Source: Planctomycetota bacterium
GTDB taxonomy: Bacteria; Planctomycetota; Phycisphaerae; Sedimentisphaerales; Anaerohalosphaeraceae
Assembly: GCA_003644175.1 (NCBI GenBank)
Contig: QNBS01000021.1
Location: forward strand, 1 to 14,353
Reading direction: 5' to 3'
DNA: 14,353 nucleotides
Shown here: positions 6,001-12,438 of the stretch, in pieces
Layout: the number at the start of each line of letters is the position of its first letter
Numbering within the stretch: position 1 is the stretch's first letter
The notes under the pieces: model-generated
What the model saw: the letters and a program-made list of their open reading frames with translations, nothing else
The model's database searches: none
Told to the model about the DNA's origin: nothing
Translations under genes and position numbers: made by a program

Positions 6001-7363
6001 CGGGGAGATGCTGCTTGTTGATGATAAGGGGCGCGAGCTTGACCGGTTCAAAGTCCCCTATGGCGCTATTACCCAGGTGGAGGACGGCCAGTTTGTCGAG
6101 AAAGGTAAAAAACTTTATTCATGGGACCCCCACAGGGTGCCTATCCTGGCGGAAGTCTCGGGCCTTGTGCGGCTCGTCGATGTTCTCGAAGGTGAGACAA
6201 TGCGGGTCGAAGAGGAACGCAAGGGGCAGATGGGACGGCCGGTGGTTATTGAGCACAAGGGAGATAAGCATCCGCAGGTCATTATCGAAGACGGCGAGGG
6301 CAAGATCCTTGACGTTCACTATCTGCCCGCCAAGGCGCGAATCGAAGTCGATGAGGGGCAGGAAGTCGAAGCCGGCAAGTTGTTGGCTCGCCTGCCGAGA
6401 GGCACCGGCGGGACGCAGGACATTACCGGCGGTCTGCCGCGTGTTACGGAAATTTTCGAGGCGCGCAAGCCAAAGGATCCGGCGGCGATGGCGGAGATCA
6501 GCGGCATTGTGGAACTGAAGAGTGATAAGCGCCGCGGCAAGATGACCATCACCATTCGCAGCGAAAGCGGGATGGAAAAAGAACACCACGTACCGCGAGA
6601 CAGGCATCTGAACTTCCATACGGGCGACCGGGTCGACGCCGGTGAAGCGCTGACCGACGGCCCGCTTGTTCCGCATGATATCCTGCGAATCAAGGGCGAA
6701 GAGTCGCTGCAGCGGTATCTGCTGCGGGAGATTCAGAACGTGTATCGGGCCCAAAGTGTGAATATCAGCGACAAGCACATCGAAATCATTGTTGCCCAGA
6801 TGATGCACAAGGTCGAGATCGAGTCGGTCGGCGACAGCAACTTCCTGCCCGGCGAGATCGTCGACAAGCTGGTATTCCGCAGTGCCAATGAGGAACTCGG
6901 CAGGAGTGTTCGGATAACGGATACGGGCGATACGGACCTGGCGGTGGATCAGGTTATTACGAAGAAGGAACTCGAAGCGGCCAACGAAAAGGTCGAGGTT
7001 TTGGGCGGAACGCCCGCCAAGGGCAAAAAGCCGCGTCCGGCTTCGGCAAATACATTGCTGTTGGGGATCACCAAGGCCTCGCTGCAGTCGGAGAGTTTCA
7101 TTTCCGCGGCGAGTTTCCAGGAAACCACGAAGGTGTTGACAGAGGCGTCCTTGTCCGGTAAAGTGGATAATTTGCGGGGCTTGAAAGAAAACGTAATCCT
7201 CGGGCATCTGATTCCCGCAGGAACGGCATTTAAGCCCCATCTGGAATTGCGAGTCAAACACCTGGTCGAGCCGCCGGTGCCCAAACAGCTTGAAGAACTC
7301 AGAGAGGCCAAAGAAGCCGAAGCGGCGGCAGAGCAGGCTGTCAAGGCCGCATTGGGGCTGTAA
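3023..7363 (+). CDS. rpoC: RNA polymerase subunit beta'
   Basis: This is the catalytic beta' subunit of RNA polymerase, complete at 1,446 residues. The N-terminal zinc site is C65, C67, C80 and C83. The catalytic Mg-binding loop NADFDGD is at 453-459, with D455, D457 and D459. The bridge helix lies around 715-741. The second zinc site is C800, C874, C881 and C884. The trigger loop, with the MRTFH motif, is at about 918-922. About 206 residues are inserted between HTGG (ending at 925) and the DITGGLPR motif (starting at 1133), equivalent to the SI3 insertion of Escherichia coli and absent in Bacillus. The C-terminal clamp segment is intact, followed by a charged Ala/Glu-rich tail. The ATG at 3023 has a CGGAG ribosome-binding site at 3007-3011, slightly far upstream. 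The gene follows rpoB in the same direction and precedes rpsL by 52 bases. Confidence 0.99.
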
Positions 7364-7415
7364 TGATGCGGTTGTCGGGCAAAGAGATAATTGAGATTGT
7401 TCATTTGGAGAAGTT

Positions 7416-7781
7416 ATGCCGACTATCAATCAATTGGTGCGGAAGGGAAGAAGAAAGAAGGGTAAAAAGCGTATTTCGGATATTACCGGATGCCCGCAGA
7501 AAAGGGGTGTCTGTCTGATTGTAAGAACGCAGACGCCCAAGAAGCCGAATTCCGCCTTGCGCAAGATCGCTCGTGTACGACTTACCAACGGCAAGGAAGT
7601 CACTGCGTACATACCCGGTATCGATCATAATCTGCAGGAGCACAGCACAGTATTGATCCGCGGCGGCAGGGTGCGGGACCTGCCGGGCGTGCGGTATCAC
7701 ATCGTTCGCGGTGTTCTCGATACAGCCGGTGTCGGCGGTCGCAGACAGGGCCGAAGCAAGTACGGCGCCAAAAAGTCTTAG
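7416..7781 (+). CDS. rpsL: 30S ribosomal protein S12
   Basis: Ribosomal protein S12 of the 30S decoding centre, 121 residues (the family usually has 123-137). The [11 protein letters not shown] segment and the NLQEHS and RDLPGVRYH segments are all present. The residue matching E. coli K43 is lysine (K42 here), the streptomycin-sensitive state. The aspartate before LPGVRYH, the site methylthiolated in E. coli, is kept. The N-terminal extension is unusually rich in Lys/Arg. The ATG is preceded by GGAG at 7407-7410 with good spacing. The gene is first in the str-type cluster, 52 bases after rpoC and 67 bases before rpsG, and is probably cotranscribed with both. A small CGGC/GCCG hairpin followed by T-rich sequence lies just after its stop; it is too weak to call a terminator. 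Confidence 0.98.
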
Positions 7782-7848
7782 GGTCGGCCTATGCCGGGCG
7801 TTTGTGTTTTTGAATCGTGAGGAATAAATAAGGTAAACAGGTGTACTA

Positions 7849-8322
7849 ATGGCGAAGAAGTTTACGGCATCGAGTTGGCAGTTGAAGCCCGATGCGAAAT
7901 ACAACAGCAAGCTGGTGGCCAAATTTGTCAATTGCCTGATGTTGGACGGCAAGAAGAGCATCGCTTTTAAGGTTTTCTATGATGCGATGGACATTATCGC
8001 CGGGCGGATCAAGGATACGCCGCCGCTGGAAGTCTTCGAGCAGGCTATAGCCAACGTCAAGCCCATGCTTGAGGTTCGCAGCAAGCGTGTCGGCGGCGCC
8101 AGTTATCAGGTTCCGATGCAGGTCAGACCCAGGCGTCAGCAGTCTCTTGGATTTCGCTGGATTCTGGCCGCCGCCCGAGGCAAGAAGGGAAAACCGATGA
8201 GCGTTCGCCTGGCTTCTGAGTTGATGGATGCTTATCGAAAGGAAGGCGCAGCCATGACGACTCGTGAAAACGTACACAGGATGGCCGAAGCCAACAAGGC
8301 ATTTGCTCATTTTGCATGGTAA
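7849..8322 (+). CDS. rpsG: 30S ribosomal protein S7
   Basis: Ribosomal protein S7, which binds the 3' major domain of 16S rRNA and nucleates assembly of the 30S head. The 157-residue length is typical. Conserved features are the [12 protein letters not shown] segment, the [15 protein letters not shown] motif in the middle, RWIL, and a C-terminal half ending in [11 protein letters not shown]. The start ATG at 7849 gives the standard N-terminus; only a weak purine-rich AGGTG lies upstream. In E. coli S7 represses its own operon by binding the rpsL-rpsG intergenic RNA; whether the 67-base spacer does so here cannot be told. A strong intrinsic terminator begins 15 bases after the stop, so this looks like the end of the transcription unit, instead of reading directly into fusA as in the classical str operon. 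Confidence 0.98.
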
Positions 8323-8336
8323 TTTTCCGCTGTTAT

Positions 8337-8377
8337 CTGCCACGGTTGTAGACGCAAACGACCGTGGCAGTTTTTTT
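8337..8377 (+). terminator. Rho-independent terminator after rpsG
   Basis: A perfect 10-bp stem, CTGCCACGGT (8337-8346) with ACCGTGGCAG (8361-8370), is followed at once by seven Ts (8371-8377). The stem can extend by three pairs including one G-T pair, leaving an 8-base loop. This is a canonical intrinsic terminator. It separates rpsL-rpsG from the accessory gene pair and fusA downstream. Confidence 0.93.
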
Positions 8378-8448
8378 GCAGCAACAGTCCAGTGTTGCCG
8401 GGAAATCGAGATACGGAACTTGTTATCCAGTCGCCCGTGAGCGTCAGG

Positions 8449-8455
8449 TGAGCAA
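8449..8455 (+). repeat. TGAGCAA, left copy of possible direct repeat flanking the module
   Basis: TGAGCAA here matches TGAGCAA at 10347-10353, directly before the fusA start codon. The two copies bracket the accessory gene pair with its ribosome-binding site. Seven bases can match by chance over intervals of this size, so a role as insertion footprint is only suggestive. Confidence 0.3.
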
Positions 8456-8464
8456 GCGAATAAA

Positions 8465-8469
8465 AGGAG
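8465..8469 (+). promoter_or_regulatory. Ribosome-binding site deciding the ATPase start
   Basis: AGGAG ends 7 bases before the ATG at 8477, which is ideal spacing. It ends only one base before the alternative in-frame TTG at 8471, which is too close. This fixes the start at 8477. Confidence 0.8.
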
Positions 8470-8476
8470 CTTGCCA

Positions 8477-9658
8477 ATGGAAGCTTATTACAGGTTGCCT
8501 TCAATCAGAGTGCAAGGATACCGTCCTTTTGATGACATTACCTTCAGCCTTCGTCCATTGCAGGTTATTGTCGGCGCCAATGGGTCGGGAAAATCAAGCT
8601 TGTTTGAGTTTCTCAAATTCATTCGGGATGCCTGTTACCAGGAGATTCCACCTGAGATTGTAGCAGGGACGATAGGGCAGCAAATTTTCCATAAACCCGG
8701 GCCTGATAAATTCTGGTGGAGTGCAGAGATTGATATTCGTGCAGGTGTGCCCTTGTATTATCAGGGACAACTGATGGGGCCCGTCGGATCGACGAAAATA
8801 GTATTTGAGAGGGTCATTACGAAAAAGCCATTACATGCGGATTACAAAACGGGCTACAAGTTTCTCGATCTAAGGAATGGGAAAGGCGTGGTTAGAGATC
8901 CTAAAGAGAAGCGATTCAGGAGAAAAGAGTGGGATTTGAAGAAACCAAATCAGTTGGGGCTTGGTGCAATCACAGATTCATCTCTGTTCACACTGTTTAA
9001 TCTTAGAGAATATATCCGAGGATGGCGCTTCTATAATTCCTTCAATATCAACAATGAGAGAATCAGAAAGTCTGTTGCCACCAGCCAGGAACCGGTCTTG
9101 CATGAGGATGCCGGGAATTTGAGTGCAGTATTGTTTAATCTGATGACTGAGTATCCGGAAGGTTTCGAAGAACTGAAGCGTGTTATAAGATCGGCGATTC
9201 CGGGCTTCAGAGATTTGAATGTCAAGGCCAGGGGTGGGCCGGGCGAAGTCATTGCTTTTTGGCAAGAGAAGAGTATAGACACGGATTTGAGTTTGGCTGA
9301 TCTATCGGATGGCACATTGCGGTTCATTGCCTGGGCCACGTTGTGTGTGATGCCGGCTCCACCCACTTTGATTTGTATTGATGAGCCGGATCAGGGAGTT
9401 CATCCAAGAACATTGCCGATTCTCGCAGGTCTTTTTGAGAAAGCTTCAGAAAGAACGCAGATAGTCCTGGCCACGCACTCATCGTATTTTCTTACACAAT
9501 TTGACATAGACAGAATTGCCGTGATGAAGAAATCGCTTGGCAAAAGCGAATTCATAAGAGTCAGTGACTCCCAGGCCCTCCTGGATAATCTTGAGGATTT
9601 CGGGAAAGATGAATTGGAGAAAATGCACCGCACTGACGAACTGGAGGGTATTTCGTGA
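8477..9658 (+). CDS. AAA_21/ABC-like ATPase of accessory two-gene module
   Basis: A 393-residue predicted cytoplasmic ATPase with an ABC/SMC-type head split by a middle region, as in AAA_21, OLD and RecF-like proteins. From the ATG at 8477, Walker A GANGSGKSS is at 33-41, the ABC-type signature LSDGTLR at 276-282, Walker B LICIDEPDQGVHP at 298-310 and the H-loop histidine H334 in LATHSSYF. The region from about 60 to 260 is the family-variable insertion. No nuclease domain is fused to it, so any effector activity is probably in the next gene. That gene starts inside this stop codon (GTGA overlap), indicating translational coupling and a shared complex or pathway. Sampled lines are more AT-rich than the ribosomal genes and AGA/AGG and TTG codons are more frequent, suggesting horizontal acquisition. 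No convincing promoter is visible. ATPase family: very likely. Defence role: inference only. Confidence 0.9.
   Translation: MEAYYRLPSIRVQGYRPFDDITFSLRPLQVIVGANGSGKSSLFEFLKFIRDACYQEIPPEIVAGTIGQQIFHKPGPDKFWWSAEIDIRAGVPLYYQGQLMGPVGSTKIVFERVITKKPLHADYKTGYKFLDLRNGKGVVRDPKEKRFRRKEWDLKKPNQLGLGAITDSSLFTLFNLREYIRGWRFYNSFNINNERIRKSVATSQEPVLHEDAGNLSAVLFNLMTEYPEGFEELKRVIRSAIPGFRDLNVKARGGPGEVIAFWQEKSIDTDLSLADLSDGTLRFIAWATLCVMPAPPTLICIDEPDQGVHPRTLPILAGLFEKASERTQIVLATHSSYFLTQFDIDRIAVMKKSLGKSEFIRVSDSQALLDNLEDFGKDELEKMHRTDELEGIS
9643..9647 (+). promoter_or_regulatory. Ribosome-binding site for the DUF4276-like gene
   Basis: GGAGG lies inside the last codons of the ATPase gene, 7 bases before the GTG at 9655. 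It supports the GTG start and the 4-base overlap. Confidence 0.75.
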
Positions 9659-10299
9659 GTGAGGTGTTCGTATATGTCGAGGGTCCGAGTGATCAGCTTG
9701 GTATGCGGGAGTTGCTTGCGGACATGATGGCTGAGGCTGAAAACAGGGGTAGCAGCCTGGATTTCTATCCGCTGGGAGGCAAGGATGCTTTGTTGCAAAA
9801 AGGTCCCGGCAAGGCGCTGAATATATTGAGAAATCGTCCAAACAGTTGGGTTTTTCTCGTGCCGGACCTGTATCCTGGCAATAAGTCTTTTGATCATGAA
9901 AGCTACGAGGAATTGAAGTCCGAGTTGTGCAGAAGATTCAAAACATTGCGCGATACGAAGAAGTGTAATTGTCGATTTGATGACCGCTTTTTTGTTCATT
10001 GTTTTAAGTACGATTTGGAGTCATTGCTCTTGGCGTCCGAAGATGTACTTCTGAGCAGACTGGGCAAGCGAAGATTCTCATTGTCATGGAAAAGACCCGT
10101 TGAAGATCAGAATCACACTAACCCACCAAAACGGATTGTTGAATCGCTTTTCGAAGATGCAGGTCTAAGATATAAAGGCACGTCGGACGTACCGTGGATT
10201 CTTAGTCGATCAAATCTCCAAGACCTTATGGCGGGATGTTCGCAGAACTTTAAGCCATTCATTGAAGATCTGCGTCGAGTTCTTGGAGTGGATGTTTAG
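9655..10299 (+). CDS. DUF4276-like protein, putative TOPRIM-type partner of the ATPase
   Basis: A 214-residue protein with no signal peptide or membrane segment. It resembles the DUF4276 family: an N-terminal strand ending in VEGPSD (E9, D13), a VPDLYPG strand-loop with D71, a HCFKYDLESLLL motif with H115 and E122, then NPPKR (157-160) and a C-terminal segment with RYKG and a conserved cysteine (C195). The VEG plus downstream Asp pattern is that of TOPRIM folds as in OLD, AriB (DUF4435) and RloB proteins, which suggests metal binding and possible nuclease activity. The fold is inferred; the motifs are seen. It starts on GTG, shares 4 bases with the ATPase stop and has its own GGAGG. Codon use matches the ATPase, so both probably arrived together. 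It could also be a regulator or sensor and not a nuclease. Confidence 0.8.
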   Translation: MSEVFVYVEGPSDQLGMRELLADMMAEAENRGSSLDFYPLGGKDALLQKGPGKALNILRNRPNSWVFLVPDLYPGNKSFDHESYEELKSELCRRFKTLRDTKKCNCRFDDRFFVHCFKYDLESLLLASEDVLLSRLGKRRFSLSWKRPVEDQNHTNPPKRIVESLFEDAGLRYKGTSDVPWILSRSNLQDLMAGCSQNFKPFIEDLRRVLGVDV

Positions 10300-10332
10300 G
10301 TTACGTTTCTCACAGAGTCAAGATGAGTACTC

Positions 10333-10348
10333 CAAATAAAGCTATTTG
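10333..10348 (+). repeat. Small inverted repeat just upstream of fusA
   Basis: CAAATA (10333-10338) and TATTTG (10343-10348) form a perfect 6-bp inverted repeat around AAGC, ending 5 bases before the fusA ATG. The palindrome GAGTACTC precedes it at 10325-10332. The stem is AT-rich and weak in RNA; a regulatory role is possible but unsupported. Confidence 0.35.
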
Positions 10349-10353
10349 AGCAA
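10347..10353 (+). repeat. TGAGCAA, right copy of possible direct repeat flanking the module
   Basis: Second copy of the heptamer at 8449-8455; it ends at the base before the fusA ATG. If the segment between the copies were removed, AGGTGA (8446-8451) would lie 4 bases before the fusA start. Confidence 0.3.
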
Positions 10354-12438
10354 ATGACAAGTGATCTGAAAAAACTTCGCAATATCGGAATTATGGCTCA
10401 TATCGACGCCGGCAAGACGACGGTCACCGAGCGGATTCTGTATTATTCCGGCAAGACGTACAAGATGGGCGAAGTGCATAACGGTACTGCGGTCATGGAT
10501 TATATGGAGGAGGAGCAGCAGCGGGGCATCACGATTACCTCGGCCGCCACCAGGTGCCCGTGGAACGAGTATGAGATTAATCTGATCGATACGCCGGGTC
10601 ATGTGGATTTCACGGCGGAAGTGGAACGGTCGCTTCGCGTTCTCGATGGTGCTGTGGCGGTTTTCGATGCAAGCGAAGGCGTCCAGGCCCAAAGCGAAAC
10701 CGTCTGGCGGCAGGGACACAAGTACGGGCTGCCCTGTATATGTTTTATCAACAAGATGGATAAGGTCGGCGCCGATTTTGAGATGTCCGTCGAGAGCATT
10801 CGCGACAAACTTCTTGCCAACCCCGTTTGTGTCCAGATGCCGATCGGCGCTGAGGCGGGTTTTCGGGGTCTCATAGACCTTGTCGCCATGAAGGCGGTTT
10901 TCTATGAGCAGGATGTGCTCGGGGCCAGATTCTCTGAAGAAGCCGTCCCGGCGGATCTGAGCGATGAGGCTGAGCACTATCGACATGAAATGATCGAGGC
11001 GGCGGCTGAATTCGACGACGAGCTGATGGCCGCCTATGTCCAGGATGAAGAGATCGATGCCCGTGTGCTGACCAGAGCGATTCGAAAAGGCACGCTGGCC
11101 AACAAGCTGAACCCGGTCTTTGTGGGGTCTGCGCTGAAGTACGTCGGGGTGCAGCGGCTGCTCGACGGGACAATCGCTTATCTTCCCTCGCCACTGGAAA
11201 AACCCGCCATTATCGGACACAAGCCTGACGACGCCAGGAAAACTATCAAGGTTCACTGCGACAAGACCAGGCCTCTTGTAGCCGTGGCGTTTAAGATTAC
11301 CAGCGACAAGCACGGTGATCTGTATTTTGTGCGGATTTACCAGGGGATTTTGAAAACAGGCAGCCGGGTGCTCAACAGCAACCGCCGGCGAAGAGAAAAC
11401 GTGACCCGCATTTTTGAGATGCACGCCAACAGCCGCAATATTCTGGATTCGGCTTCCGCCGGGGACATAGTGGCGGTTGTGGGGCTCAAAGACACGCTTA
11501 CAGGGGACACGCTTTGCGACACAAAACACCCGATTATTCTGGAGAGTATCACTTTTCCCCAGACTGTGATCAGCATGTCAATCGAGCCTCAAACGGCCGG
11601 AGAGCGTATGAAACTGGCCGATGCCCTGAGTGTATTGCGTCGCGAGGACCCGACGTTTGGGTGCAGGTACGACACTGAGACCGGCCAGACGATAATCAGC
11701 GGCATGGGCGAGCTTCACCTGGAGATACTGCAGCACAAGCTGACCCGCGATATGGGCGTCAATGTGCGGGTGGGCAAGCCGAAAGTGGCCTATAAGGAGG
11801 CAATCACGGGCACAGCCGAGGCGGAAGGCAAATTTGTGCGTCAGACCGGCGGCAGGGGCCAATACGGCCATGTCGTCATTCGAATCGAGCCGCTGCTGGA
11901 TGAGCAGGGTCATTATTGCCGTGAAAACGAGTTCGAGAACGCAATCATCGGCGGCAGCGTGCCCAAAGAGTACGTCCCGGCGGTGGAAAAAGGCGTACTT
12001 GACGGGCTTTCGGCGGGGACTGTCGCGGGCTATCCCCTTGTGGGTGCTAAGGTTACGCTCCTTGATGGTTCGTATCATGCTGTTGATTCCTCGGAGTTGG
12101 CGTTTGAGCAGGCCGGAGGCATTGCCGTCCAGGAAGTCGTAAAAAGGGCTTCGCCGATTCTGCTGGAGCCGGTGATGAAGATACAGATTGTTGTGCCCGA
12201 GGCCAATTACGGAGCTGTTCAGGGCAATCTGATCAGCCGGCGCGGAACGATCACCGACACGCATGTACACGGTAATATGCGGGTTATTGACGGGCGTGTT
12301 CCTCTGGCGGAGATGTTTGGCTATTCCGGCGAGATCCGCGGCGCAACGGCCGGTCGAGGGGCCTTTTCCATGGAGCCGCTGTGCTACGAAAAGGTGCCGG
12401 AACAAATTTGTGAAAAAATTCTTGTAAGTTATTATTGA
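10354..12438 (+). CDS. fusA: Elongation factor G
   Basis: Translational GTPase EF-G, which drives ribosomal translocation and, with RRF, ribosome recycling. It is complete at 694 residues. The G motifs are AHIDAGKTT at 15-23 (G1), [10 protein letters not shown] at 57-66 (switch I), DTPGH at 79-83 (G3), NKMD at 133-136 (G4) and GSA at 258-260 (G5). Domain III has [10 protein letters not shown] near 449-458. Domain IV has [10 protein letters not shown] near 498-507 and the tip histidine H575 in SYHAVDSS, equivalent to E. coli H583. Domain V ends atypically: TAGRG replaces the usual TQGRG and the FSHY motif is absent. The start context is poor, with only GAG 3 bases upstream, and no promoter or terminator is seen between the DUF4276-like gene and fusA. 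Location in the str cluster suggests it is the main EF-G, though an EF-G paralogue cannot be excluded. Confidence 0.97.

Follow-up and report, generated by a model that had tools for sequence, protein, structure and literature searches.

A divergent HEC-01-like ATPase and DUF4276 gene pair between rpsG and fusA of a Planctomycetota genome

Why would two genes unrelated to the ribosome lie between rpsG and fusA, within one of the most conserved gene orders of bacteria, and what might they do? The question is raised by a 14,353-nucleotide stretch of a Planctomycetota genome (contig QNBS01000021.1, assembly GCA_003644175.1; hereafter the window), in which the gene order is rpoB-rpoC-rpsL-rpsG-A-B-fusA-rpsJ as read from open reading frames, with Pfam matches for rpsL, rpsG, fusA and rpsJ and with the labels rpoB and rpoC taken from position and length only. 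Gene A encodes an ATPase and gene B a DUF4276 protein. An original prediction made from the letters of the window had raised the possibility of an anti-phage or stress function for the two, and by analogy with related systems we infer the same. We consider it fairly probable that the pair is a horizontally acquired, HEC-01-like two-gene module in which an ABC-ATPase sensor and a Toprim-fold nuclease arrest the infected cell. Its parts are as follows.

8477 to 9658, forward strand: gene A, a 393-residue ABC-type (AAA_21) ATPase, HEC-01A-like (Pfam AAA_21, 2.5e-32; PADLOC HEC-01A, 5.4e-60; ABC motifs).
8573 to 8599, forward strand: Walker A motif GANGSGKSS of A, from the translation, with G33, N35, G38 and K39 invariant in the alignment.
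9655 to 9658, forward strand: GTGA overlap of the A stop and the B start; short overlaps occur in most other pairs.
9655 to 10299, forward strand: gene B, a 214-residue DUF4276 protein, HEC-01B-like, a putative nuclease effector (Pfam DUF4276, 9e-14; PADLOC HEC-01B, 3.7e-9).

The best start of A is the ATG at 8477, directly preceded by AAAAGGAG, and its stop ends at 9658. Besides a Walker A exactly where it had been predicted, A carries the sequences LSDGT, LICIDEP and ATHSS, which we take to be the signature, Walker B and H-loop, and each of the four motifs contains residues that are invariant across 40 aligned sequences, the window included. HEC-01A is its best PADLOC match and covers nearly the full profile. 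Weak matches to RecF/SMC_N and Rad50 profiles were also found, and Thermus OLD is among its best matches in the PDB. At one locus from a Planctomycetota metagenome-assembled genome (MAG; L120, 2121-4421), the ATPase open frame extends to about 766 residues, which perhaps reflects an extra N-terminal domain or else the tendency of GC-rich genomes to have long open frames.

Gene B starts with the GTG at 9655, stops at 10299 and contains the motif VEGPSD, in agreement with the VEG...D pattern noticed earlier. Its AlphaFold2 model (pLDDT 94.2) matches the Toprim domains of OLD, PARIS and GajA, the nearest folds being PH0156 and then the OLD Toprim domains, and B is thus predicted to have a Toprim fold. 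Residues E9 and D71, corresponding to Toprim motifs I and II, are invariant in 43 pairs, and by analogy with Toprim nucleases B may itself be a nuclease. A Pfam scan of B up to an E-value of 1 returned nothing besides DUF4276 (neither DUF4435 nor RloB), and a sequence comparison with PDB chains up to an E-value of 10 gave no match.

That A and B belong together is indicated by their distribution. Genome contigs were scanned with an alignment of B, yielding 67 loci from many phyla. A lies directly upstream of B in 64 of them, and in the other three B is at or near the first base of its contig. Most loci show an overlap of a few bases between the two genes; the four-base overlap in the window, GTGA as originally described, could couple their translation. 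Moreover, pairwise identities among A proteins correlate with those among B proteins (Mantel r 0.88, with none of 2000 permutations as high) in a set of 43 pairs with clean gene bounds that includes the window and from which further Nostocales were dropped. Judged by these comparisons, A and B are a tightly coupled, co-inherited pair, and the conserved pairing bears out the idea of a joint system.

To place the pair in its locus, three further features of the window are needed.

7849 to 8322, forward strand: rpsG, the upstream neighbour (Pfam Ribosomal_S7, 1.1e-57).
8337 to 8377, forward strand: an intrinsic-terminator-like hairpin (8337-8370) and T-run after rpsG, an old element of the spacer with the pair 3' of it.
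10354 to 12438, forward strand: fusA, the downstream neighbour (Pfam GTP_EFTU, EFG_III, EFG_IV and EFG_C).

From the end of rpsG at 8322 to the start of fusA at 10354, the spacer in the window measures 2031 bp. A search of 59 genomes located rpsG in 56, the window's own among them, and the spacer was read in all 55 others. In 53 of these relatives fusA follows on the same strand at 75-303 bp (median 127; a few distances were extrapolated from partial alignments), with no match to A or B in between, so that the claim of about 2 kb with two non-ribosomal genes at this position was accurate. The extent proposed for the insertion, 8378 to 10353, does contain the pair (8477-10299), but its first base simply lies just past the hairpin, in the rpsG-fusA spacer. 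In the other two relatives, which belong to one genus (L067 and L069, in G042 and G046), no fusA match was found within about 2.7-3 kb of rpsG, and the order seems to be broken there for another reason.

In the spacers of 51 of the 53 relatives, a stem of 7 or more perfectly paired bases lies close to a run of at least 4 T residues, and the pair therefore sits between an old hairpin and fusA. The stem of the window hairpin, CTGCCACGG...CCGTGGCAG, recurs little changed across an order (L009-L037, L057-L082), with the exact GCCACGG/CCGTGGC stem present in 24 of the 53 spacers and a single match of the window stem pattern in its own genome. Such retention of the stem sequence hints at a role beyond termination alone, perhaps as a regulatory site. 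With a hairpin resembling a terminator standing between rpsG and A, the description of the pair as lodged at a highly expressed locus is unproven. Between 8200 and 10500, no sigma-70-like promoter was found (2.9 were expected from shuffled sequence), and an Rfam scan of 7000-10700 gave no match. Given a draft genome of 405 contigs, one could also ask whether a foreign contig was wrongly joined into the str operon. This is highly improbable: rpsG with its locus-specific hairpin upstream and fusA downstream are on one contig with the pair, the protein cluster of B has three member sequences on two contigs, and cases of a like kind occur in other assemblies. The A-B pair between rpsG and fusA is real.

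How did it get there? The GC content of both A and B is 0.460, compared with 0.557 for fusA and rpoC and 0.536 for rpsG, close to the ten-point deficit relative to fusA that had been estimated from sampled lines. At third codon positions the difference is larger, with 0.48-0.49 for A and B, 0.65-0.69 for rpoC, rpsG and fusA, and 0.62-0.69 for the other genes measured overall. By this measure the composition of A and B is foreign. A vertical pattern with the pair at this locus across the whole class, which the original prediction had said would argue against a mobile defence module, was sought and not found. Among 59 near relatives, the window's own genome counted, three gave a B-like match, one of them a fragment with stops; among 397 class genomes, again with its own counted, nine gave one at an E-value of 1e-6. 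The other eight class matches are 33-38% identical, and an A-like gene adjoins each. Much closer relatives of A are found elsewhere, where its identity was compared with the best EF-G identity between the same genomes: a Fretibacterium MAG (L087; A 83%, EF-G 53%), a Sedimentisphaerales MAG (L088; 82% and, for an EF-G frame with one stop, 70%), L089 (78% and, for a partial EF-G, 50%), an Acidobacteriota MAG (L090; 75% and 47%), a KSB1 MAG (L092; 74% and 44%), an Aminicenantes MAG (L091; 62% and 47%) and Sphaerospermopsis (L106; 62% and 52%). A is more alike than EF-G between the same genomes, as expected after transfer. On these identities and the composition, the pair arrived horizontally at the rpsG-fusA locus. 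As for signs of mobility, the window and the six closest pairs have no flanking sequence in common in flanks of up to 300 bp, and the longest repeat between the two flanks in the window is 7 bases, about what chance would give by our estimate. Relatives of A are present on 253 plasmid records, all below 60% identity and at 25.6-28.6% in the 15 listed.

A second site shows the pair in several states. At the Nostocales loci it lies between ureA and ureB (assigned by Pfam on L106), and a sample of 145 genomes was drawn from the family of L106, presumably Nostocaceae. ureA was found in 133 of these genomes and A in 13; B was likewise found in 13, as a full-length gene in ten and as a fragment in three, with ureA and ureB as neighbours at all 13 B loci. 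In G154, which bears A and was missed by the B search, A lies 72 bp from ureA. Full-length A and B are present together in 10 genomes. In three of the 145, A is intact with only a C-terminal piece of B (residues 171-218 in G138, 191-218 in G154 and 160-218 in G201), and in two others both genes are mostly gone (G173, with B 12-49 and 197-218; G178, with A 1-27 and B 204-218). Full-length B without A was not found among the 145 genomes. Decayed ureA-ureB copies, with B truncated and A intact or with scars, were seen at L172, L173, L174, L181 and L195. When 30 ureA loci were opened, 16 had an empty spacer of 18-65 bp and five did not reach ureB. As far as the ureA sites could be read, the pair or its remains are thus present in at least 15 of the 145 genomes. 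The identities of A and of the urease genes are moderately correlated (Mantel r 0.52, with 57 of 5000 permutations as high, for 12 loci). B changes faster than A, with mean identities of 75 and 89%, respectively, in 10 genomes. Pairwise dN/dS of A to the nearest copy is 0.285, 0.075 and 0.152 in the three genomes that lack B, and its median in intact pairs is 0.140 (45 comparisons). The order of decay, with B lost and A kept, fits B being the costly part.

The same decay order would suit a chromosomal module of the toxin-antitoxin or selfish addiction type without an anti-phage role, in which the ATPase A is the proteic antitoxin to a nuclease toxin, B, and which is kept since loss of A frees B. 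B was lost before A in three Nostocaceae genomes and full-length B without A was not seen; the genes overlap with A first; PDB entries label AriA of PARIS an antitoxin; and an excerpt of PMC11455837 treats PARIS as a toxin-antitoxin system. However, A exceeds a simple antitoxin in complexity, and all 40 aligned sequences retain its active-site motifs, which points to ATP-driven sensing. The family is also among the PADLOC defence candidates. We regard a pure addiction module as unlikely. A repair or processing nuclease acting on DNA or RNA, built from a RecF/SMC-type ATPase and a Toprim protein and having nothing to do with immunity, is less plausible still. The weak RecF/SMC_N and Rad50 matches of A, the lasting residence in a metabolic operon of Nostocaceae and the failure to find any mobile-element link would agree with it, but core repair genes are not expected to be as patchy as this (A in 13 of 145 Nostocaceae, B-like matches in 9 of 397 class genomes), nor to show transfer between phyla and repeated decay.

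In other neighbourhoods, gene names were read from Pfam families and gene order. The order nuoF-A-B-PDDEXK_3-nuoG-nuoH occurs in a Saprospiraceae MAG; at L133 a PDDEXK_3 nuclease-like gene (11113-11490) follows the pair within the nuo operon. The pair is also found between nuoM/nuoN-like genes and hrcA, between carB and a glutamine amidotransferase (purF-like) gene in two Desulfarculus MAGs, after glgC, after OAD_beta and after accA, the B frame at the last site being in two pieces. At L088 it is followed by an AbiEi-type and probably an AbiEii-type gene. A PADLOC scan at 1e-15 of 136 neighbour proteins from 38 loci gave few matches, to 18 models with one member each, these being of the types AbiEi, AbiEii, HEC-02B, mad3, PDC-S09 and SspA/DndA.

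Sites such as rpsG/fusA, ureA/ureB, nuoF/nuoG and the one after carB raise the possibility that the pair regulates its host operon by recoding expression of the neighbouring gene. To see how unusual its placement is, 24 of the 67 loci were dropped (bounds not clean, or a distant clade) and ten further Nostocales were merged with L106; the remaining 33 were compared with 257 control genes, using crude open reading frame calls. The upstream gene is co-directional at 24 of 33 loci (73%) versus 62% of control genes, and co-directional within 150 bp at 19 of 33 (58%) versus 47%. Genes on both sides are co-directional at 13 of 31 (42%) versus 38%, and both neighbours lie within 200 bp at 8 of 31 (26%) versus 27%. 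Targeting of operons as a rule is therefore not supported, there being no enrichment over control genes. With co-directional flanks not enriched over the control and with sites unrelated to each other, a role as operon regulator is very hard to credit. A related proposal is that divergent HEC-01-like pairs, rather than riding on mobile elements, are guests in core operons and use operon transcription, so that its take-over or shut-off by a phage shifts the A:B balance and frees B. We rate this as a long shot, but if it were true, core operons would be wired to an immune alarm. A search of the literature on urease operons with an ATPase and on defence in housekeeping operons returned nothing resembling the pair.

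Returning to the horizontally acquired defence module, the steps would be as follows. A would use ATP to sense a signal linked to an intruder and would restrain B; B, once released or activated, would cut nucleic acid; and the infected cell would stop growing. If B resembles AriB, the substrate might be tRNA or another RNA; if it resembles OLD and GajA, it might be DNA. As described in excerpts of PMC12409363 and PMC11455837, AriA of PARIS sequesters AriB until a phage trigger frees it to cut tRNA. The control of B by A, the anti-phage role and the substrate are all suggested by such analogies.

Several observations weigh against this model. Canonical Toprim motif II has the defining form D-x-D, and in B it is D-x-Y in 40 of 43 pairs, so that catalysis by B is not assured. 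The HEC-01B match, the only one of B in PADLOC, is weak (3.7e-9, profile positions 12-225 of 230). The B match is split in two at 5 of the 67 loci (L092, L135, L137, L140 and L152), and some copies may therefore be broken or misassembled, perhaps through frameshifts, deletions or assembly errors. In Nostocaceae, purifying selection on A in genomes without B means that A may act alone; the loss of B but not A stands at just 3 to 0 in a small sample, and the downstream place of B might by itself favour its loss. Unlike many defence systems, B has no close relative in the plasmid or phage collections searched, and of 44 pattern matches in viral contigs none is a relative of B. Finally, metabolic genes outnumber known defence genes among the examined neighbours. 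Metabolic surroundings do not exclude defence, however, since an excerpt of PMC13092281 places just 17% of the known defence genes of its E. coli strains in defence islands, by that study's definition. The case shows that an ATPase-Toprim pair resembling a defence system can insert into highly conserved operons and be maintained there, outside the view of defence-island surveys. The Nostocaceae urease site, with its intact, B-deleted, scarred and empty versions, offers a natural series for the study of cost, decay order and function.

Among known systems, PARIS was named in the original prediction together with AbiL, and the resemblance stands as far as layout is concerned: like PARIS and OLD, the window combines an ABC ATPase with a Toprim-like partner, whose fold is here a predicted one. 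In PARIS, an ATPase hexamer sequesters the nuclease and frees it on a trigger. Membership is a different matter. AriB is a DUF4435 protein, whereas B is a DUF4276 protein without a DUF4435 match, which rules out PARIS. The second gene of AbiL (AbiLi/AbiLii) is RloB-like, and although A is related to its ATPase (AbiLi, 5e-26), neither Pfam nor PADLOC shows an RloB match for B, which rules out AbiL. OLD and Gabija GajA likewise join an ABC ATPase to a Toprim domain, and OLD Toprim domains are among the nearest folds of B, but there the two are in one chain and in the window they are encoded separately; downstream comes fusA instead of the GajB helicase of Gabija. A is also related to the mad3 ATPase of MADS (PADLOC, 2.8e-24), but it scores 107.6 bits with NCBIfam MAD3, far under the cut-off of 420 bits, and the flanking genes scanned in the window are ribosomal genes and fusA.

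This leaves HEC-01, the only PADLOC system matched by both proteins, and five other scanned pairs give similar HEC-01 matches. HEC-01 is reportedly among the Hma-embedded candidates in a 2024 preprint of Payne et al. (10.1101/2024.01.29.577857, cited in PMC12988326). In the open-access literature searched, DUF4276 was not mentioned. In excerpts of that literature HEC-01 was listed only as one of the systems detected in Desulfovibrio piger strains (PMC12724379), with no activity test found, and several HECs, HEC-06 being named, showed antiviral activity (PMC12988326). Like the window pair, HEC-01 consists of two adjacent genes on the same strand, an AAA_21 ATPase and then a DUF4276 protein. The window's own genome carries a second pair (contig C10, L083:2999-4721, minus strand) with a like gene order and overlap, which matches HEC-01A at 1.1e-126 and HEC-01B at 3.1e-78; it adjoins a HAD-like gene and a large efflux-pump-like gene, both named by eye. 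The window pair matches far more weakly than this classical pair, its B is 22% identical to the second B over 188 positions, and the third motif is KYDLE in the window and HEFEA in the second pair. From the weaker match, the strongly matching second pair and the low identity of the B proteins, we infer that the window pair is a divergent HEC-01-like subfamily that sits beside classical HEC-01 in the same genome.
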